Below are positions 305 to 13,542 of a stretch of 64,000 bases of DNA, in pieces; the first letter of the stretch is position 1, and each line of letters starts with the position of its first letter. Location of the stretch: contig JAJEDE010000024.1 in NCBI GenBank assembly GCA_022821645.1, positions 1-64,000 on the forward strand, written 5' to 3'. The notes under the pieces are model-generated. The model saw only the letters and a program-made list of their open reading frames with translations, did no database searches and was not told the DNA's origin. The DNA comes from Chloroflexota bacterium. Its GTDB lineage: Bacteria; Chloroflexota; UBA11872. The translations under genes and the position numbers were made by a program.

Positions 305-688
305 CTAGGTCTGGAGGACGAAGTCGGCGATTTGTCGGGCCTGGCGGATGGCCTCTTGCGCCTTTGGGATGCCGGGTTCCTGGGCGGCTTCGGCTGGATA
401 GCGGGCGGTACCGACGTATGGGTTCGGAGTGATGGCGGCGGGCATGAGGTCTGCAAAGGCCGGGTCCAGGCCGGTGCAAAGGTCAATGAGATAACCGAGG
501 TCGTGGACGAAGCGGAAGGGGACGCCGTGAGCAACGAGGTAGCCCTTCAGGTACTTTTCGGCGCATTGCTGGGCGTGAAAGCAGGCCAGGGTCGGCAGCG
601 CGCGGTCCGGCCCTAGCGCGCGGCGGGCTAGTTCCAGGTCGTCGTCTGCTTTGGCGAACCAGGCGTGTTCAGGCCGCCGGTCGGTCAT
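305..688 (-). CDS. HEPN domain toxin-like protein
   Basis: A protein of 127 residues read from the ATG at 688; it could be extended upstream but the extension runs through the partner gene. It has the HEPN pattern: an N-terminal helix (HAWFAKADDDLELARRAL), the conserved FHAQQCAEKYLKGYL helix (residues 38-51) and an FRFVHDLGYLIDL segment (58-70). HEPN proteins of this type are RNases or toxins neutralised by a nucleotidyltransferase partner, and that partner lies just upstream with a 20-nt overlap, so the two are probably co-translated. I do not see a canonical Rx4-6H motif; only R59-x2-H62 is present, so RNase activity is not assured. Confidence 0.8.
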   Translation of the reverse strand: MTDRRPEHAWFAKADDDLELARRALGPDRALPTLACFHAQQCAEKYLKGYLVAHGVPFRFVHDLGYLIDLCTGLDPAFADLMPAAITPNPYVGTARYPAEAAQEPGIPKAQEAIRQARQIADFVLQT

Positions 689-1013
689 ACAGCACTTCCG
701 ACTCTTCCAACATGCGGCTGAGCATGGAGTTGGGATCCTGGCGATACCGAGCAAGCACGTCGGCTGACCGGATCAGGATGTCGACCGGCAGGACGAAGTT
801 CTCGGCGATGGCCAAGCGGATGGCATATCCGTCGCGGCCCTGTTCGTCGTTGTGCCGTAGAACCACCATGAGGTCCAGGTCGCTGTTGTCATCCTCTTCG
901 CCGCGGGCGACGCTGCCGAAGAGGATGATTTGCTCGGGCTGGAAGCGCTCGACGATGAGCTGGGTGATGGCATCGATGGTTTCGCGGTTGAGGGGGTCTT
1001 CGACGACGCGCAT
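669..1013 (-). CDS. MNT-type nucleotidyltransferase (antitoxin of HEPN/MNT pair)
   Basis: A 114-residue minimal nucleotidyltransferase. It shows ILFGSVARG (G33-S34), then D45-x-D47, and a third acidic position at D78 (LPVDILI), the metal-binding triad of the fold. In HEPN/MNT modules the MNT protein acts as antitoxin, in some cases by adenylylating the HEPN toxin. It is upstream of the HEPN gene and overlaps it by 20 nt. The open frame continues for about 195 codons upstream, but that part is low-complexity and lies in repeat-like DNA, so I chose the ATG at 1013 just before the conserved fold. Confidence 0.82.
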   Translation of the reverse strand: MRVVEDPLNRETIDAITQLIVERFQPEQIILFGSVARGEEDDNSDLDLMVVLRHNDEQGRDGYAIRLAIAENFVLPVDILIRSADVLARYRQDPNSMLSRMLEESEVLYDRPAA

Positions 1014-1613: not shown

Positions 1614-1877
1614 ATGGAGCCCGCGATTCGCTCGGTGTCCGGCCCTGAGGCGTGGGGGTTCGCCGAAGTCGCTCAAGTCGTCGGCGTCATTGCGCTGGTC
1701 CTCGTCCTGGTCAGCCTGATCGTGTATGGGTTGCGGTCGGATTCGGACCCACGTCGTGACCCGTATCTTGCTGCGCAGAGGAGGGCCCGGCGCGGTGTGG
1801 CGACAGATGACGAGATCGAATACTTGGAGCGGTTCAACATGCCAAGCGGACCCGGCGGCGGCGATGGCTCAGGCTAA
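1614..1877 (+). CDS. small single-span membrane protein
   Basis: An 87-residue hypothetical protein. The ATG at 1614 is chosen because it directly precedes the amphipathic N-terminus; the upstream extension is Arg-rich and unlikely. One transmembrane helix covers roughly residues 20-40 (VVGVIALVLVLVSLIVYGL), followed by a basic, then acidic cytoplasmic tail (LAAQRRARRGVATDDEIEYL) and a glycine-rich end. The tail faintly recalls short SHOCT-type modules, but I would not assign a family. No partner gene is evident. Confidence 0.55.
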   Translation: MEPAIRSVSGPEAWGFAEVAQVVGVIALVLVLVSLIVYGLRSDSDPRRDPYLAAQRRARRGVATDDEIEYLERFNMPSGPGGGDGSG

Positions 1878-1906
1878 CCGCGCATCGTGGCGCGAAGATT
1901 GATCAA

Positions 1907-2122
1907 ATGAGTGGACGCCATCCGTTCAGCGAACTGACCAGGAACTTCACGCCGGAGCGACGCCGGCGCGTGGACGAAGTGAAGCGGGAGTTGCTGGCTG
2001 AGATGCCGTTGCATGAGCTTCGCCGGGCACGGGCGCTTACGCAGCGGAGCGCTTTGCGTAACCCTGGCGTGGTTGCCCGGAAGATCCCTCATCCCAACTC
2101 TCTCCCCCAGGAGAGAGAGTAA
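1907..2122 (+). pseudogene. truncated XRE-family antitoxin/regulator, 3' part replaced by a repeat
   Basis: The first about 47 codons match the start of XRE-type antitoxins found beside RelE/HigB toxins (HPFSELTRNFTPERRRRVDE, then LLAEMPLHELRRARALTQ). At the point where the helix-turn-helix should begin, the frame runs into the dispersed hairpin repeat (TTTGCGTAACCC... ) and ends as a repeat-derived peptide (ARKIPHPNSLPQERE). The DNA-binding domain is therefore lost. No toxin gene remains next to it. The family match is from memory of the N-terminal pattern. Confidence 0.7.
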
Positions 2123-2125
2123 GGG
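2050..2125. repeat. dispersed hairpin repeat, copy A
   Basis: Carries the block CTTTGCGTAACCC, then GGTTGCCCGGAAG, then a CTCTCTCCC...GAGAGAG hairpin. The same order of blocks appears at 2176-2255, 8329-8400, 8452-8612 and 9060-9265. It interrupts the XRE gene. Confidence 0.75.
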
Positions 2126-2175
2126 CCGTCCCTCACGCGAGGGCGAGGTGGCTATCACTAGTTTTTCCGACGTCG

Positions 2176-2255
2176 GACCTTTGCGTAACCCGCGGGTGGT
2201 TGCCCGGAAGACCCTCACCCCAACCCTCTCCCACGGGGAGAGGGAGCAAGAGTCG
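2176..2255. repeat. dispersed hairpin repeat, copy B
   Basis: Same block order as copy A: CTTTGCGTAACCC, GGTTGCCCGGAAGACCC, CTCACCCCAA, and a perfect 9-bp stem CCCTCTCCC-ACG-GGGAGAGGG. It lies between the truncated XRE gene and the nuclease-like gene at 2399. Confidence 0.75.
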
Positions 2256-2398
2256 TAACGCCGCGTCGATTGGGGGCTACTATCCGCCCAGCGACAACTG
2301 GGTCCGCACCGTGGGCGAGTTGCGACCGCGTAAGTTGAGGGTTTTTCTATTCGCTCGAGTTGAGGATGTTGGTGGCAAGTAAACGGAGGTAGCAAACG

Positions 2399-3454
2399 AT
2401 GGCCGAGGCTCAATCTCTTCTTAGTCTGATTGCCCGAGGGTATGCCGCGGGGCGTGAGGATGCGGCTACGGAGGCGCTGTGTTTCATCGTGTCTCGCTCG
2501 GATTCGGCCAGAGCAGCGCTTGCCGAGTTTCTTGGGTTTGACGAAGATCCGCTACCTATCGCCAGCTTTAGAACACAGTTTCTAACGGACGGCGCGTTTC
2601 CAGACATGGTCTGTCTCGACAAATGTAACAACCGAGTGGCGTTTATAGAGTCCAAATTCTGGGCGACCCTGACGCATAACCAGCCCGTTAAGTATTGGGA
2701 AGAGCTTGCAGCGAACCGACCAAGCGTGCTGCTGTTCCTGGCACCGGCCTCTCGTGTCGCTGATATTGACGAAGGCTCGTTGTGGGGCGGGTTGGTGAGG
2801 CGGTTGCGTTGTGCCGACCACGATCTGGATCCTGTCGATTGTCAAGAGTCAAGGAGTTTTATCACCGCGCCATCTAAAGACGGTCAACGCCGCCTGATAC
2901 TCGCCAGTTGGGACATGCTGCTCGACAGACTGACGCAGCGAACCGTGAAGGACGCAGACTTCAAAGCCTGCTTCGAGATCGCCGAACTGCGGGGGCTTGC
3001 CCACGACACCATTCAGAATGACGACCCCGTAAGGGACAAGAATCTGAAACGATCGATTGCCGACGCGGTCACGCGCCTAAAGGAATCGGGTTGGGTCAAC
3101 ACCGATGGACTGACCGTCGGATCGGGAAGCACCTATTACGCGAGATTCTTTCGCCTCGCGGGCGGGATCGCCGGGCTCCTTATCGATTACAAGGACGAGA
3201 AGCAGCTGCCTGACAGGTCACTCTGGCTCCGGTTCGGGAACGAAGAGAACGGCAGGCTGTCCGCGGACGACGTAGCGTGCCGCTTGGGTCAGGCTGGTGA
3301 ATCGGAATGGGAGCGGCGAGACCAGTACGTATATTTGCCCATCGTCTTGCCAGCGGGCGCTGACAGCCAAGCGCCCGGCGACACCATCGTCGCCGAGTTG
3401 GAACGTATCGCCAAGATCATCGATCCCAAAGGTCCGACGTATCTCCTTGAATAA
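2399..3454 (+). CDS. PD-(D/E)XK nuclease-like protein
   Basis: A 351-residue protein with an AACGGAGGT ribosome site just upstream of its ATG. The N-terminal third holds a PD-(D/E)XK signature: P68-D69 (GAFPDMVCLD), then E84-S-K86 in a hydrophobic strand (VAFIESKFWATLTHNQPVKY), then a hydrophobic LLFLAP strand. The C-terminal half, starting near SGWVNTDGLTVGSGSTYYARF, is shared with the next gene and is of unknown role. The next protein is a full-length paralogue, so a duplication is clear. No helicase or methylase is adjacent. A role in defence or DNA processing is inference; I did not recognise a named family beyond the nuclease superfamily. Confidence 0.72.
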   Translation: MAEAQSLLSLIARGYAAGREDAATEALCFIVSRSDSARAALAEFLGFDEDPLPIASFRTQFLTDGAFPDMVCLDKCNNRVAFIESKFWATLTHNQPVKYWEELAANRPSVLLFLAPASRVADIDEGSLWGGLVRRLRCADHDLDPVDCQESRSFITAPSKDGQRRLILASWDMLLDRLTQRTVKDADFKACFEIAELRGLAHDTIQNDDPVRDKNLKRSIADAVTRLKESGWVNTDGLTVGSGSTYYARFFRLAGGIAGLLIDYKDEKQLPDRSLWLRFGNEENGRLSADDVACRLGQAGESEWERRDQYVYLPIVLPAGADSQAPGDTIVAELERIAKIIDPKGPTYLLE

Positions 3455-3565
3455 ACGACCGGATAATGGTCAGCAACATCCACGAGGGGAGGAAGCTCTC
3501 GGATAATTTCGGCGTTGCTGCCGATTTGTCGGTCCGACCTGGGAGTGATCCGGAGGATTCTGACG

Positions 3566-5563
3566 ATGACTGACGAGGAAACTCTGCTCGGGGCGGTCGC
3601 CAAACGTCATGCCTACAGCCTTGAGGACGCCGCCACGGACGCGCTGACGTTCATCCTCTCCCGCCGGGCGTGTGCGAGACAGGCGCTGTCGGAATTCCTG
3701 AGGGACGACGCCGGACAACCCTTCCCTGTCGCGAAGGTCGACTCCTGGACGGCAACTGAGCATGGCGCAATCCCGGACCTGGCCTGCTTCGACGAGAAAG
3801 ACGACGTGGTTGCATTCATTGAGTCCAAATTCTGGGCGACGCTTACCGATCACCAGCCAGTGACCTACTGGTGTGCCCTTCCAACCGACAAGCCGGCCGC
3901 GCTGCTGTTCTTGGCGCCGCAATCCCGTGTCGAGTCAGGCTCGTTGTGGGACGAGCTGGTTGATCGATTGCGCCAAGCGGATGTTGAACTGGACGACGCG
4001 GACAAGACAGATGGACTGGTAAGCGCAGCCGCCAAGGACGGCCGCCGCCTGATGCTCACCAGTTGGGAGGTGCTGCTAGGTCTCTTCTCCGAGACTGCCA
4101 AGAGAGACGATGATTCCCAGGCTTGCTTCGAAATATCCCAGCTGCGGGGGCTCGCCAGCGCCGGCATAGAGCGGGACAAGACGATTCCCGATGAAGAGCT
4201 TCGACAATCGTTCTGGGATGCGGTCGAGCGTCTCAAGCGGTCAGGTTGGGCCAACACCGATCGATTGACCGTGGGAACCGGAACCAACTACTTCGCGCGA
4301 TATTTTCGCCTCGCCGGCGCGCCTGCCGGGCTGCGTATCGATTACGAGGACCAAAAGCAGCGGCCCGAAAGATACCTCTGGCTCTGGTTTTGGCACGAAG
4401 AGAACGCCAAGCTGGCGGTAGAAGACGTGGCGCGTATTTTGGACCAGGCGGGCGAATCGGAATCGGAATGGCGAGGCTCGGAATTACTCTTGCCCATCGT
4501 CTTGCCAGAGGACGCTGATGATCAGACGACCGTCAACTCCATCGTCGCCGAGCTCGAACGTATCGCCCGGTTACTTGACCCTGAGGGCCCGACCTATCCA
4601 GATGCACATGACTCTGGGGAGGCTAGAGACCGACAACCCGCCGAGCGTCTATATCCACCCGGGGGGCAGACTGAAAGAGGCGCCGCGATCAAGGTCGTCA
4701 GTTGGAACATCGCCACCAGGATTAAGCCGTGGCGAGAATTGGTTGAGATGGGCGCCGATGTGGCGCTCTTGCAGGAGGCCAGGCGGCCGCCGTCGGAGAT
4801 TGCAGATCGTGTTGAGATTGGTCCAGAGGAGTCGTGGGACTCGCATTCGTGGAATTCGGAATGGTGGCGCGGACGTTGGCCAAGACTGTTCGACCGGTGG
4901 CCGATGGTGGTGCGGCTCTCGGATCGAGTCGATGTCGAATGGTTCAGGCAGGTCAGCCCTGACGGGTGGCCGACGGAGAACGAGATCTCCGTCAGCGGCA
5001 TTGGGACGATAACGGCGGCGCGGGTGACTCCAAAGGACGGCTCGACTGAGCCGTTCATCGTGGTCTCAATGTATGGCCGCTGGGTCGGGCCGCACCCAAG
5101 CATTCAGGCGTCCTGGGAGATCTATGCCGACGCTTCGGTTCACCGCATCATTTCGGACCTTTCGGTCTTCATCGGCCACGACGATCGACGCACGCATCGC
5201 ATCCTGGCGGCCGGGGATCTCAACGTCACCTATGGCTATGGTCACGGCAGTGGGCCGTATTGGGACGCGCGATACCGGAACCTGTTCGAGAGGTTCGAGG
5301 CCGTTGGGCTCGAGTTCATGGGGCCTCAGTTGCCGAATGGACGGCAGGCGGAGACGCTGGCGACGGGGGAACCTAAGGACTCCGAGAACGTCGTCACTTA
5401 TCACCTCCCCAATAGGACCCCGGCGACGGCGAGCAACAATCAGTTCGACTACGTCTTCGCTTCGCGCGGATTCCACCAGAGCCTCAAGGTCCGTGCTATG
5501 AACGGCGTAGACGAGTGGGGGTCAAGCGATCATTGCCGGCTGGAGATCGAGATCGCGGAGTAG
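3566..5563 (+). CDS. PD-(D/E)XK nuclease-like domain fused to EEP nuclease/phosphatase domain
   Basis: 665 residues from the ATG at 3566, chosen because CGGAGGA sits 9 nt upstream and because the paralogue at 2399 starts at the equivalent point. Residues 1-355 align with that paralogue, including P70-D71 and E86-S-K88. A short linker then leads to an endonuclease/exonuclease/phosphatase domain (about 375-660) with the expected catalytic set: N381 in VVSWNIA, E404 in LLQEA, D551/N553 in GDLNV and D655-H656 in SSDHC. EEP domains include DNase I-like, AP-endonuclease-like and phosphoesterase enzymes. Two intact hydrolase sites in one chain, next to a single-domain paralogue, is an unusual arrangement. 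Confidence 0.75.
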   Translation: MTDEETLLGAVAKRHAYSLEDAATDALTFILSRRACARQALSEFLRDDAGQPFPVAKVDSWTATEHGAIPDLACFDEKDDVVAFIESKFWATLTDHQPVTYWCALPTDKPAALLFLAPQSRVESGSLWDELVDRLRQADVELDDADKTDGLVSAAAKDGRRLMLTSWEVLLGLFSETAKRDDDSQACFEISQLRGLASAGIERDKTIPDEELRQSFWDAVERLKRSGWANTDRLTVGTGTNYFARYFRLAGAPAGLRIDYEDQKQRPERYLWLWFWHEENAKLAVEDVARILDQAGESESEWRGSELLLPIVLPEDADDQTTVNSIVAELERIARLLDPEGPTYPDAHDSGEARDRQPAERLYPPGGQTERGAAIKVVSWNIATRIKPWRELVEMGADVALLQEARRPPSEIADRVEIGPEESWDSHSWNSEWWRGRWPRLFDRWPMVVRLSDRVDVEWFRQVSPDGWPTENEISVSGIGTITAARVTPKDGSTEPFIVVSMYGRWVGPHPSIQASWEIYADASVHRIISDLSVFIGHDDRRTHRILAAGDLNVTYGYGHGSGPYWDARYRNLFERFEAVGLEFMGPQLPNGRQAETLATGEPKDSENVVTYHLPNRTPATASNNQFDYVFASRGFHQSLKVRAMNGVDEWGSSDHCRLEIEIAE

Positions 5564-5757
5564 GTCCCGCGCCTGTTTCCTGCCGTGCCGAGGTTCCATC
5601 GCATGGGATTGCGGGCGCGTTGACACCGATGATTCCGTGTTGAGGAACAAAGGGACGGGTGGTTCAGGGTGGGGGGTGCGCGGAGTAAGGGTGCTTCGCG
5701 AATCGCCCCTACGTGGGATGGGGCGCTGCGAAGGGTGGGGCGCAGGGCCAGGGTTTG
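5564..5757. other. gap before the IS481 remnant
   Basis: Together with the remnant and the stretch to 6058 this is about 500 bp without an intact gene. The first part shows no recognisable feature apart from G-rich low-complexity DNA. Confidence 0.5.
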
Positions 5758-5962
5758 GTGCGCTGGGTGTCCTTCCAGGGCCGCCACCTGCGGTTGCCCA
5801 AGGCGTTGCGCGGCCAGGCCGTCGCCTTTCGCCCCACCGCCACCGACGGTTACTGGGCAATCCGTTTTCTGACCGACGACCTGGGCTCCCTCGACCTGCG
5901 GGCGCCCGCTCAAAAGTGTCCACCATGTCTCCGAACACCTGTTCACCATGTGCCCGGTCTGG
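5758..5962 (+). pseudogene. decayed C-terminus of an IS481-type transposase
   Basis: One frame reads VRWVSFQGRHLRLPKALRGQ followed by AVAFRPTATDGYWAIRFLTDDLGSLDLR, which matches the C-terminal beta-rich end of IS481-family transposases (from memory of the family). A second frame then reads SVHHVSEHLFTMCPVW, the usual trailing peptide of such elements, so at least one frameshift is present. No catalytic DDE core is left. It marks an old insertion just downstream of the nuclease pair. Confidence 0.55.
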
Positions 5963-7051: not shown

Positions 7052-8341
7052 GTGAGCGAGCGGTTGGCGATGCATGGTGGGGCGCCGGTTCGGGCGGAGC
7101 CGTTTGGGCCGGGGCATGCGTTTGGGGATGACGATATTGCGGCGTTGACCGAGGTGGTGCGGTCGGGGCACGTGGGCAAGGGGCCGAAGGTCGATGCCTT
7201 CGAGCGGGCGTTTGCGGCGCGTCACGGGGTGAAGCACGCCATTGCGGTGACGTCAGGAACGGCGGCGATGCACGTGTGCATCGGGGCGATCAATCCGGAG
7301 CCGGGGGACGAAGTGATCGTGACGCCGTGGACGGCGGGCGGGACGATCATGGGCGCGCTGCTGCAGAACTGCGTGCCGGTCTTTGCCGACATCGACGAGA
7401 CGTACACGCTGGATCCGGCGGACGTGGAGGCGAAGATCACGCCGCGCACGCGGGCGATCATTGCGGTGCACTACCTGGGCAATCCGTGCGACATGCGGGC
7501 GCTGCAGGCCATCGCACGGCGGCACGGGCTGTCGCTGATCGAGGACTGCGCGCAGGCGCATTTCGCGGAATACCAGGGCCAAGTCGTCGGGAGTATTGGC
7601 GACATGGCGGGTTTCAGCTTTGGGGGGAAGCACCTGTCGGCGGGTACCGGCGGGGCGGTCCTAACGAACGACACCGAGCTATGGGAACGGGCCGTCCTTT
7701 TTCACGACGTGGCGCTGCCGCGGGCGGGCGGGCCGTATGCGGACCGACCGTACGGCCACTATTTCATGGCGCCCCACTACATCATCAATGACCTGACGGC
7801 GGCGGTGCTGCTGGTGCAGTTGGAAAAAGTCGACGGGTACATCGCCAGCAAGATCCGGGCGGCGGAGCGAATCATCGACGGCCTGGCCGACATCGAGGAG
7901 CTGACCCCGCAGGCGGTGCGGCCGGGCGACCGGCATACCTATTGGATCCTGGGGTTCAGCCTGGATACGGAACGGCTGGGCTGCTCGGCGGACGTGTTTG
8001 CGGACGCGGTGCGACATGAGGGCGTGCTGCTGATCAAGGCCGAGAACAGCGTGGATGCGCGGCATCCTTCGACCGGGCTGCCGCGCATGGGCGGGGGCGG
8101 GCCGCTGTATAACGATCCGTTCCTGGCCGGACCCGATTGCTACGGCGAAAGTCGCTTCCCTTTCGACCATAGGCGGGAGCAGTCGGTGGCATACGGGCCG
8201 GGCGCGTGTCCGAACGGGGAGGCGCTGATGGGTCGCACGGTTGGGTTCAACATGTGGCCGAATCTGAGCGATGCGGACATTGACGACATCGTGGGGGCGT
8301 TGCGGAAGGTGGCGTTGTATTACCGGGGGACCCTTGCGTAA
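7052..8341 (+). CDS. DegT/DnrJ/EryC1/StrS-family PLP aminotransferase
   Basis: 429 residues from a GTG at 7052 with GGAGG 6 nt upstream; the frame is open further upstream but without family similarity. Fold type I PLP enzyme: SGTAAMHVCIGAI binds phosphate, D165 in LIEDCAQAH stacks on the cofactor region, and K193 in SFGGKHLSAGTGG is the Schiff-base lysine. These enzymes transaminate keto-sugars or related substrates for surface sugars and antibiotics. No other nucleotide-sugar gene is near it, so its substrate is open. It is isolated between decayed intergenic DNA on both sides. Confidence 0.88.
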   Translation: MSERLAMHGGAPVRAEPFGPGHAFGDDDIAALTEVVRSGHVGKGPKVDAFERAFAARHGVKHAIAVTSGTAAMHVCIGAINPEPGDEVIVTPWTAGGTIMGALLQNCVPVFADIDETYTLDPADVEAKITPRTRAIIAVHYLGNPCDMRALQAIARRHGLSLIEDCAQAHFAEYQGQVVGSIGDMAGFSFGGKHLSAGTGGAVLTNDTELWERAVLFHDVALPRAGGPYADRPYGHYFMAPHYIINDLTAAVLLVQLEKVDGYIASKIRAAERIIDGLADIEELTPQAVRPGDRHTYWILGFSLDTERLGCSADVFADAVRHEGVLLIKAENSVDARHPSTGLPRMGGGGPLYNDPFLAGPDCYGESRFPFDHRREQSVAYGPGACPNGEALMGRTVGFNMWPNLSDADIDDIVGALRKVALYYRGTLA

Positions 8342-8400
8342 CCCGGGCTTGGTAGCCCGGAAGACCCCTTGTCAATCCCCCAGGAGAGGGGAAGAACGGC
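8329..8400. repeat. dispersed hairpin repeat, copy C
   Basis: Begins within the last codons of the aminotransferase: CCTTGCGTAACCC, then a perfect CCGGGCT-TGGT-AGCCCGG stem, then GGAAGACCCC and CCCCCAGGAGAGGGG. The repeat supplies the gene's stop codon region. Confidence 0.75.
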
Positions 8401-8651
8401 GGCGAGGGGGGCGGCGTGGGTGGCTCGGGGCTTGGGTGGGATTCCGGGCTTTCGACCCTCACCCTAGCCCTCTCCCTGCCAGGGAGAGGGAATAAGACGG
8501 CGTCTCCTTTGAGAGACCTTTGCGTGACCCGGGGTTGGTTGCCCGGAAGACCCCTCACCCGGCGCTGGGGACAGCGCCGGCCTCTCCCCCAGGAGAGGCA
8601 AGAGGTCGCGCCCCCGAGGAATCAGGAGTTTTGCAAAGGTCCCCCGCCAAG
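8342..8651. other. repeat-filled intergenic DNA
   Basis: About 970 bp separate the aminotransferase from the acetyltransferase gene. They consist of repeat copies C, D and E plus one broken small gene (8652-8973). I see no intact gene. Confidence 0.6.
8452..8612. repeat. dispersed hairpin repeat, copy D
   Basis: Contains ACCCTCACCCTAGCCCTC, the perfect CCCTCTCCCT-GCC-AGGGAGAGGG-type stem, then CTTTGCGTGACCC and GGTTGCCCGGAAGACCC. The part at 8380-8520 is nearly the same as 9095-9235, differing by scattered substitutions and small indels, so these two are recent copies. Confidence 0.75.
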
Positions 8652-8973
8652 CTATACCGAGCCGAGCTCGGTGGCCGCGACGAGCTTGTAGACCTCGCGG
8701 ATACGGCGCAGGAAGTCTCTGGCAGCTCGCTGGCTGCTAGGTCTGGCTGGGTTGATCAAGGAGCCGGGCGAGATAGGTCAGTGATCTAAAGATCACGTCG
8801 CCGTGGTACCGCCCGGGTGGATCTCTGTGGATGCGCAGGAATTCGTCAGCCGTCAGACCAAAGTGGCGCCGCGCGTCGCGGTCCAGTTCGTCCCAGACCT
8901 CCTGACGCGTGACCTGTTAGTGTTCGAATTCGTCGGGCAGCCACTCGGGCCGGGCCTCGACGGTTGTTGCCAT
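8652..8973 (-). pseudogene. broken small gene (nonsense codon plus frameshift)
   Basis: From the ATG at 8973 the frame reads MATTVEARPEWLPDEFEH, then an in-frame TAA, and continues in the same frame with QVTRQEVWDELDRDARRHFG up to a stop at 8737. A +1 shift then recovers AARDFLRRIREVYKLVAATE to a stop at 8652. The reconstructed product of about 105 residues is acidic and helical. It resembles small proteins of antitoxin-like pairs, but I cannot name the family. The two lesions argue for decay; readthrough is less likely. Confidence 0.5.
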
Positions 8974-9059
8974 GGACTGTGCCTCGCTGCGCGTAAGGAC
9001 AGGATAGGGCGGGCGGGGACCGGGGACGTGGGGGTGATAGGTGTGGCGAGCGGGTGTGG

Positions 9060-9265
9060 TGTTTTTGGGTTGGGTGCCCGGAAGACTCCTTGTCTATCCC
9101 CCAGGAGAGGGAAAGAACGGCGGCGGCGAGGGGGCGGCGTGGCTGGCTCGGGGCTTGGGAGGAATTTCGGGCTTTCGACCCTCACCCTAGCCCTCTCCCT
9201 GCCAGGGAGAGGGAATAAGACGGCGTCTCCTTTGAGGGGGCGAGGCGTTGTGCAAAGGTCTCCGG
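9060..9265. repeat. dispersed hairpin repeat, copy E
   Basis: Block order GGGTGCCCGGAAGACTCC, CCCCCAGGAGAGGGAAAGAA, ACCCTCACCCTAGCCCTC, and the CTCTCCC-TGCCA-GGGAGAG hairpin, ending near GTGCAAAGGTCTCCGGG. It is close to copy D. Confidence 0.7.
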
Positions 9266-11001: not shown

Positions 11002-11181
11002 ATGAAAAAGCTGTTCTTCTTTGACTATCGCGAGTTGGAGTACATGGATGGGTTTGCGCGGGGGGTGGAGTCGGCGGTGAAGGATGCGGGGGCGCCGTTG
11101 CTGCGGCCGGAGTTGCCACGGGAGCAGGGCAACAACCGGCTGCTGGGCAGCGTGGTCCTGGCGGCGAAGTGGAGTCACTAA
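11002..11181 (+). pseudogene. truncated 5' copy of the propeller gene at 12145
   Basis: Reads MKKLFFFDYRELEYMDGFAR and on to a stop after 59 residues. By eye 39 of the first 55 residues equal those of the intact protein starting at 12145, and the similarity stops after GSV. It is a diverged partial copy lying upstream of the DUF7662/PIN pair, with the complete gene on the other side of that pair, so the pair is bracketed by a direct repeat of about 165 bp. Confidence 0.8.
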
Positions 11182-12144: not shown

Positions 12145-13542
12145 ATGAAGAAGCTGCTGTTTCTGGACTACCGGGAGCTGGAGTACGTGGAGGGGTTTGC
12201 GCGGGCGGTGGAGTCGCCGGTGAAGGATGCGGGGGCGCCGTTGCTGCGGCCGGATCTGCCGTGGGAGCACGGGAACATGCAGATGTTCGGGAGCGTGCTG
12301 CAGGGGGCGGACGGGCGGTTTCGGGCCTGGTATGAGGTGGTGGAGGCGCCCTGGCGGGTGCGGCTGGCGTACGCGGAGAGCGACGACGGGTTGGACTGGC
12401 GGAAGCCGGAACTGGATGTGTTCAGGGACGGTGGGCAACCGACCAATATCGTGTTCGACCGGCAGCCGTTGGGGTCCGCCGTGATCGAGGATCGAGAGGA
12501 TCCTCGGGAGGCCTACCGGTTCAAGCTGCTGACGGGCGCGGCGCCGTCGGGGTGCGTGTCGGCGTTTCATAGCGCGGATGGGATGCACTGGGAATCGGCT
12601 CGGATGTTTGGCGGTCGGGTCCAGCCGGTGATCGCGACGGCGCCGGACTGCCCGATCGGCTTTCTGCGGGCGCCCGACGGGCGGTTTGCGGCGTATCACC
12701 GGATGGCGGGGTATGGGCGACGGGTGTTTCGGAGTGAGTCGTGGGACTTTGCGCACTGGTCGGGCGAGCCGCAGATGGTGCTGGAGCCGGATGCCGTCGA
12801 CCCGCCGCAGACGCAGTTCTACGGGTTGGGCGCCTGCGCCTACGGGCCGTATGAACTGGGCACGCTGTGGATCTACGCGACCGATCCGGACGACCATGGA
12901 CCGGGCAAGGCGCACGGATTGCAGACGCCGGAGCTGGCCTATGCGCGGGCCGGGACGGCCTGGCACCGAGCGGAAGCGGGCACGGCGTTCATTCCCAACG
13001 GGGCCGCGGACGAGTGGGATTGCGGGAATCTGCAGGCGGCCTCGCAGCCGGTCTTTTTGGACGATGAGATTCGCTACTACTACGCCGGGACGAACGTGCG
13101 GCACTCGCGGCATTGGGAGTTGGAGCCGCAGGAGGCCGGGCTGGGCATGGCGCGGCTGAAGCCGGACCGGTTCGTGGCGCTGCGGGCGGGCGAGGCGCCG
13201 GCGGAGTTGGGGACGATAGCGTTCAAGCCGACGTCGGTGGACGTGTTCGTCAACGCGCGGACGGCGGGCGATGGCGAAGTCAGGGTGGAACTGCTGGACG
13301 AGGAGGCGCGGCCGTTGCCGGGGTTTACCGCGGCGGACTGCCGGCCGATACGGGGCGACGCGACGGGGCACCGGGTGGAGTGGCGCGGGGCTGGGCAGGC
13401 GGCGGCACCGGTGGGCGAGCCGACGCGGATCCGGGTGACGGCGCGGCGGGCCAGCGTGTACTCGGTGTTCGCGACCGAGCCGGGCGAGTCGCCGGTGTAT
13501 CACCAGTTCGAGGGGCTGCGGCCGGAGAACGAGGCCTGGTAG
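12145..13542 (+). CDS. glycosidase-like beta-propeller protein (GH32/43-type fold)
   Basis: 465 residues from the ATG at 12145 (AGGAG 9 nt upstream; the truncated copy at 11002 starts at the same codon, though a GTG 9 nt earlier is possible). Repeated blades such as GRFRAWYEVVE, RLAYAESDDGLDW, SAFHSADGMHWES and FRSESWDFAHWS resemble five-bladed propellers of GH32/GH43-like proteins; the last about 100 residues form a beta-sandwich-like tail. There is no signal peptide, so it is cytoplasmic. It is followed by a Gfo/Idh/MocA enzyme, consistent with carbohydrate breakdown, but the substrate is unknown. Confidence 0.65.
   Translation: MKKLLFLDYRELEYVEGFARAVESPVKDAGAPLLRPDLPWEHGNMQMFGSVLQGADGRFRAWYEVVEAPWRVRLAYAESDDGLDWRKPELDVFRDGGQPTNIVFDRQPLGSAVIEDREDPREAYRFKLLTGAAPSGCVSAFHSADGMHWESARMFGGRVQPVIATAPDCPIGFLRAPDGRFAAYHRMAGYGRRVFRSESWDFAHWSGEPQMVLEPDAVDPPQTQFYGLGACAYGPYELGTLWIYATDPDDHGPGKAHGLQTPELAYARAGTAWHRAEAGTAFIPNGAADEWDCGNLQAASQPVFLDDEIRYYYAGTNVRHSRHWELEPQEAGLGMARLKPDRFVALRAGEAPAELGTIAFKPTSVDVFVNARTAGDGEVRVELLDEEARPLPGFTAADCRPIRGDATGHRVEWRGAGQAAAPVGEPTRIRVTARRASVYSVFATEPGESPVYHQFEGLRPENEAW

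Follow-up and report, generated by a model that had tools for sequence, protein, structure and literature searches.

An operon joining PD-(D/E)XK nuclease-like proteins to EEP hydrolases in Chloroflexota, reduced by deletion to two genes and possibly acting in defence

Genes A and B of the Chloroflexota bacterium contig JAJEDE010000024.1 are a deletion derivative of a longer gene set, A-EEP2-B-EEP1, from which the EEP2 gene has been lost. The window, by which we mean the whole stretch of 64,000 nt that was analysed, belongs to a MAG of 3.5 Mb in 28 contigs (G000). The PD-(D/E)XK protein or domain (hereafter PDD) and the EEP hydrolase are very probably functionally paired. A and B may be what is left of a two-enzyme operon that was duplicated and that acts as a two-nuclease defence module, a role that we infer and for which the case is evenly balanced. 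The relevant features of the window are listed below.

305 to 1013, minus strand: toxin-antitoxin pair of a HEPN gene (305-688) and an MNT nucleotidyltransferase gene (669-1013), just upstream of the module and outside it
2399 to 3454, plus strand: gene A, PD-(D/E)XK nuclease-like, 351 aa, starting at an ATG with GGAGG upstream; core at residues ~19-120, helical middle at 188-229, alpha/beta C-terminal domain at 240-341
3074 to 3451, plus strand: C-terminal third of gene A (residues ~226-351), for which sliding identity is higher with the B lineage than with the nearest A orthologue
3469 to 3540, plus strand: EEP2 remnant of 24 codons between A and B, its SDH motif now SDN
3566 to 5563, plus strand: gene B, 665 aa, starting at ATG 3566 with its own GGAGG
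3566 to 4600, plus strand: N-terminal PD-(D/E)XK and C-terminal domain of the PDD part of gene B, paralogue of A
4601 to 4687, plus strand: linker of gene B (residues 346-371), of low confidence in the structure model (pLDDT < 50)
4688 to 5560, plus strand: C-terminal EEP domain of gene B, ExoIII/APE1-like, with complete catalytic residues

Gene A and residues 1-345 of B share 53% identity across an alignment of 350 aa (E = 2e-116), which rules out similarity by chance. The two genes are paralogues with PD-(D/E)XK motifs in both, as anticipated by the earlier note, which had described a shared N-terminal nuclease signature. The GGAGG in front of ATG 3566 makes this codon the likely start of gene B, and the listed TTG at 3515 was dropped. 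The GC content is 0.58 for A and 0.61-0.62 for B, against 0.67 for the window.

In the AlphaFold2 model of A (pLDDT 88), a helix at residues 19-33 is followed by strands at 56-59, 70-73 and 79-85, a helix at 95-102 and a strand at 109-115. Residues 19-115 of this model display the alpha-beta-beta-beta-alpha-beta topology of the PD-(D/E)XK core. The core topology and the D...(D/E)-x-K signature on strands 2 and 3 are present in the models of both A and B. The motif set of A is of the RecB type (E20, D69, E84-x-K86 and Q95xxxY99). In an alignment of 28 homologues E20, D69, E84, W88, Q95 and Y99 are invariant or at least 90% conserved, and K86 is kept in most. The corresponding residues of B (E20, D71, E86, K88 and Q97) are intact. 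In the fused B proteins of L005 and L037 the lysine is replaced by isoleucine, and their PDD domain therefore cannot be a normal nuclease.

All PD-(D/E)XK matches of the window proteins fall under the Pfam gathering cut-offs. Gene A reaches 11.9 bits with PDDEXK_4 (E = 0.21; cut-off 22.3), and a distant PDD relative reaches 20.9 bits with the same family. The C-terminal domain of the A and B PDD (~150 aa) has no match in Pfam, and neither protein has one in NCBIfam. Searches of PDB sequences with phmmer and profiles returned PDD matches at chance level only, and a fold search of the PDB with A alone gave nothing significant. Among viral structures the best match, a sub-significant one, is to a protein annotated as PD-(D/E)XK (E = 5e-3, prob 1.00). 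The best non-EEP matches of B in the PDB, likewise sub-significant, are YaeQ proteins (E = 0.02-0.05); YaeQ has a PD-(D/E)XK fold.

The C-terminal part of B is an EEP superfamily domain, as revealed by the catalytic set N, E, D-x-N, D and S-D-H together with an ExoIII-like fold. The earlier claim that the second gene adds a complete EEP domain is borne out, since residues N381, E404, D551, N553, D628, D655 and H656 are all present and conserved. The fold matches those of Mth212, ExoIII, APE1 and the R1Bm endonuclease (E about 1e-8, TM 0.6 of target), and the ExoIII family was also matched in the phmmer and profile searches of PDB sequences with the EEP part. Against PF03372 (Exo_endo_phos), B scores 22.0 bits (E = 1.5e-4; cut-off 24.5) and one relative scores 30.8 bits.

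The loss of EEP2 is recorded in the short segment between the two genes, which corresponds to EEP2 residues 217-240 at 79% identity (E = 4e-6); in relatives an intact EEP2 stands between A and B. There, EEP2 starts ~4 nt past the A stop codon and overlaps the start of B, and the full A-EEP2-B-EEP1 set therefore constitutes one tight operon. The exception is G085, in which A and EEP2 are separated by a PDC-S11 gene on the opposite strand. A different contig of the source genome (G000:C28:48526-50480, that is, L179:6527-8480) carries a second, partial copy of the module, in which a PDC-S11 gene and an intact EEP2 are found with a PDD stub of 26 residues.

Gene A itself is probably of mixed descent. 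Residues 1-225 follow the A lineage and residues 226-351 are nearer to the B lineage; at the DNA level, the match of the window A to the A gene of G085 (84%) stops at 3095. Judged from this switch in affinity, gene A probably arose when tandem copies recombined with each other. Another local event is seen further along the window, where a stub of 59 aa (11002-11181) repeats the start of a 465-aa gene (12145-13542) with a PIN-like gene between them; this is a local tandem duplication.

The tandem of a single-domain gene beside a fused one, whose conservation as a pair the earlier note had proposed to check, was rejected as the conserved unit. What is conserved in relatives is the combination of a PD-(D/E)XK protein with an EEP protein, in the following arrangements.

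A, EEP2, then B fused to EEP1: G085, G189
A, EEP2, EEP1: G181, G213, G101
A, EEP2: G237; G287 (where contigs break)
PDD then EEP, separate genes: G109, G010
EEP then PDD: L007, L008
PDD-EEP fused, in another family of the order: G266 (L004); G093 (L006/L042), broken by stops
PDD-EEP fused: L005

Among 400 genomes of the phylum, the PDD family occurs in 22 and the EEP1 family in 29, and EEP2 was found in 16 phylum genomes. Every sampled Chloroflexota genome with a clade-1 PDD (12 of 12) has an EEP gene or an EEP remnant adjacent to it, and three contigs of another collection (L005, L007 and L008) also have the two side by side. Both gene orders occur, PDD-EEP for instance in L043 and L044 and the reverse in L007 and L008. 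L005 is labelled Bryobacterales, yet its flanking genes are those of genus g1, and it is therefore probably a mis-binned contig. Within genus g1 the PDD is present in 8 of 13 genomes, and G069 has kept EEP2, EEP1 and PDC-S11 without a PDD. A search of 41 genomes of the class gave no further genomes with the PDD family. Clade-1 PDD and EEP1 are absent from the plasmid and phage collections, and clade-1 modules were found in Chloroflexota only.

Both a conserved neighbourhood and fusion in independent lineages are thus seen for PDD and EEP. Clade 1 emerges from the PDD tree as a single group (100/100), and B forms a g1 clade. The EEP tree places the fused EEPs from the order-level family f2 with solo EEPs and not with the EEPs of the g1 module. 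Forcing the g1 and f2 EEPs together costs 152 log-likelihood units, and a single fusion event is rejected on this tree with an AU p value of 7e-60, which is to be read as indicative since the groups were chosen after viewing the tree. Forcing all paired EEPs together costs 158 units. The PDD tree alone does not reject a single fusion (p = 0.37). EEP2 is a separate EEP subfamily that is likewise paired with PDD. Because the EEP tree rejects one origin, PDD and EEP must have been paired, and also fused, on two or more occasions. Without a shared function such repeated joining would be difficult to account for; repeated swapping of the EEP partner beside or inside one PDD lineage would say the same. 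The dN/dS values (0.08-0.16 for EEP, with 0.08-0.12 for the EEP domain of B; 0.34-0.44 for PDD, from the B PDD compared with G085) indicate that both parts are maintained and that the PDD evolves faster.

The distant PDD homologues have a different partner. No EEP gene lies within the 13-18 kb examined at the 11 distant PDD loci (L045-L055), and at six of them (L047-L050, L052 and L053) a small conserved gene, usually upstream and encoding about 105-142 aa, stands directly beside the PDD. The same small gene adjoins the PDD on the phage contig L157 and on Rhizobium plasmids (L158, divergent). On L157 (5650-7026; IMGVR_UViG_3300045005_000251) the distant PDD and the small partner lie between tail-sheath-like and tail-tube-like genes, an arrangement resembling phage-borne defence cargo. 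The small proteins (L053:7989-8354; L158:7625-7939; L187:5986-6321) share WPHEY...YW motifs, have no Pfam match and are a candidate new accessory family; a homologue on a Butyrivibrio plasmid is encoded two genes downstream of McrC, near McrBC. At L052:8256-10172 a clade-2 PDD carries another C-terminal extension of ~300 aa, which has no Pfam match and represents a further fusion.

In genus g1 the site of the module is flanked by a VOC/ArsR/DegT block on one side and a nitroreductase gene on the other. The content of this site varies and includes HEPN/MNT, a HigB-type toxin-antitoxin system, PDC-S11 (E = 1e-65) and a methyltransferase. Contigs of several relatives break beside the locus in an empty-site comparison within the genus. 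These ends are probably caused by dispersed repeats, of which an intergenic one is found in the window at 1874-2260, 8247-8558 and 8853-9185, with translations such as LSPWERVGVRVFRATTRGLR. Solo EEP homologues have as neighbours a type IIG enzyme in L090, a methyltransferase in L098 and Vsr in L097, and in L093 a PDC-S11-like nuclease gene lies 3 nt upstream of one. In L101 a solo EEP homologue (5096-5890) is found 127 bp from Azaca ZacC (1775-4963; PADLOC E = 0), a neighbourhood pointing to the EEP family itself as a defence-associated gene. Several solo EEPs stand among housekeeping genes, and toxin-antitoxin neighbours are common in these genomes generally. Neither A nor B is matched by a PADLOC-DB 2.0.0 model at E ≤ 5, and EEP2 and the solo EEP relatives have no match at E ≤ 1. 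The earlier statement that no named system has both domains agrees with PADLOC and with the literature searched, consisting largely of papers outside subscription, in which no named PD-(D/E)XK plus EEP system was found.

We tentatively propose an unnamed defence system of two unrelated nucleases, a reading that falls somewhat short of probable, in which a PD-(D/E)XK first cutter has come together time and again with EEP finishers of different subfamilies, with two or more fusions. Each unit would consist of a RecB-type PD-(D/E)XK nuclease followed by an EEP hydrolase, translationally coupled or fused, and the two enzymes would share one nucleic acid substrate, most likely DNA. The PDD protein would recognise and break foreign DNA, perhaps by means of its C-terminal domain. 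The EEP would then extend the damage or make it irreversible, either by 3'-to-5' digestion or by cutting at nicks, gaps, abasic sites or modified sites. Housed at a chromosomal site of varying content, the module would serve in restriction-like or suicidal defence. No methyltransferase is found among the genes adjoining A and B in the window, and one is near the module only in L040; with none beside it in the window, the module would need to be modification-dependent (type IV-like) or infection-triggered.

A role in DNA repair or housekeeping, in which the PDD and an AP-endonuclease/ExoIII-like EEP process damaged or recombining host DNA, is unlikely, although it has several observations in its favour. 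The nearest EEP folds are AP endonucleases and ExoIII, the EEP is under strong purifying selection, and in several families the module lies amid housekeeping genes (recA/ffh in L007). By contrast, the module is patchy, low in GC, and gained and lost within one genus (8 of 13 genomes), its chromosomal site differs from family to family, the PDD part evolves fast, and its neighbours are toxin-antitoxin and defence-candidate genes. The toxin-antitoxin genes nearby, HEPN/MNT and the HigB type, would also suit a selfish addiction unit, in which the nucleases attack host DNA unless a partner restrains them, as would the small conserved gene alongside the distant PDD homologues. No small antitoxin-like gene stands beside A or B, however, and the clade-1 partner is an EEP and not a small protein, with the catalytic domains fused and not separable; we regard this explanation as distinctly unlikely.

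Enzymes that act on RNA and on lipids are among the members of the EEP superfamily. It is accordingly conceivable that the EEP targets RNA, a nucleotide signal or a lipid head group and that the PDD is a scaffold or sensor, as the L005/L037 proteins might suggest, in which the PDD has lost its lysine and the EEP is still intact. The top structural matches of the EEP are nevertheless DNA endo- and exonucleases, and the full PD-(D/E)XK set is kept in A and in most B copies, which makes this alternative distinctly unlikely, slightly more so than an addiction unit. The arrangement of two catalytic domains in one chain beside a single-domain paralogue had led the earlier note to compare the pair to toxins or effectors in defence islands. 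The defence-like neighbourhood of this comparison stands, and the delivered effector or polymorphic toxin has no support: A and B both start straight with the nuclease domain, no delivery domain or immunity gene is seen, and relatives alternate between fused and unfused forms. Such an effector is highly improbable.

If the proposal of a two-nuclease defence module is true, an unlisted combination of two nucleases would be added to prokaryotic defence, and the module would offer a test of why two phosphodiesterase folds are joined repeatedly, in either order and through fusions that arose independently. A further consequence would be that fusion proteins in present-day genomes can be what deletion has left of a longer operon. 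The copy to assay would then be the intact A-EEP2-B-EEP1 of a relative rather than the window pair.

Type II restriction-modification systems have their cognate methyltransferase in the operon, whereas none stands beside A and B in the window, and toxin-antitoxin systems have a small adjacent antitoxin, whereas the partner of A and B in the module is an EEP enzyme. The PADLOC candidate PDC-S11 and Shedu-like nucleases are defence-candidate genes beside the same EEP families (L036, L087, L093 and L179), but A and B do not belong to PDC-S11 (no match at E ≤ 5). PDDEXK_4 (PF14281) and VRR_NUC (PF08774) have in common with A and B the core topology, the D, the E-x-K, the glutamate of helix A and the QxxxY motif, and are matched by individual PDD homologues (E = 4e-4 to 9e-4). 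The EEP of B has the same fold and the same catalytic N, E, D/N, D and D-H as ExoIII, Mth212 and APE1 (PF03372), from which it differs by an identity of only about 14% and by being joined or coupled to a PD-(D/E)XK protein. The clade-2 PDD of L157 and L158 belongs to the same PD-(D/E)XK family and follows the same two-gene logic as the window module, with a small protein of about 105-142 aa in place of the EEP of clade 1.
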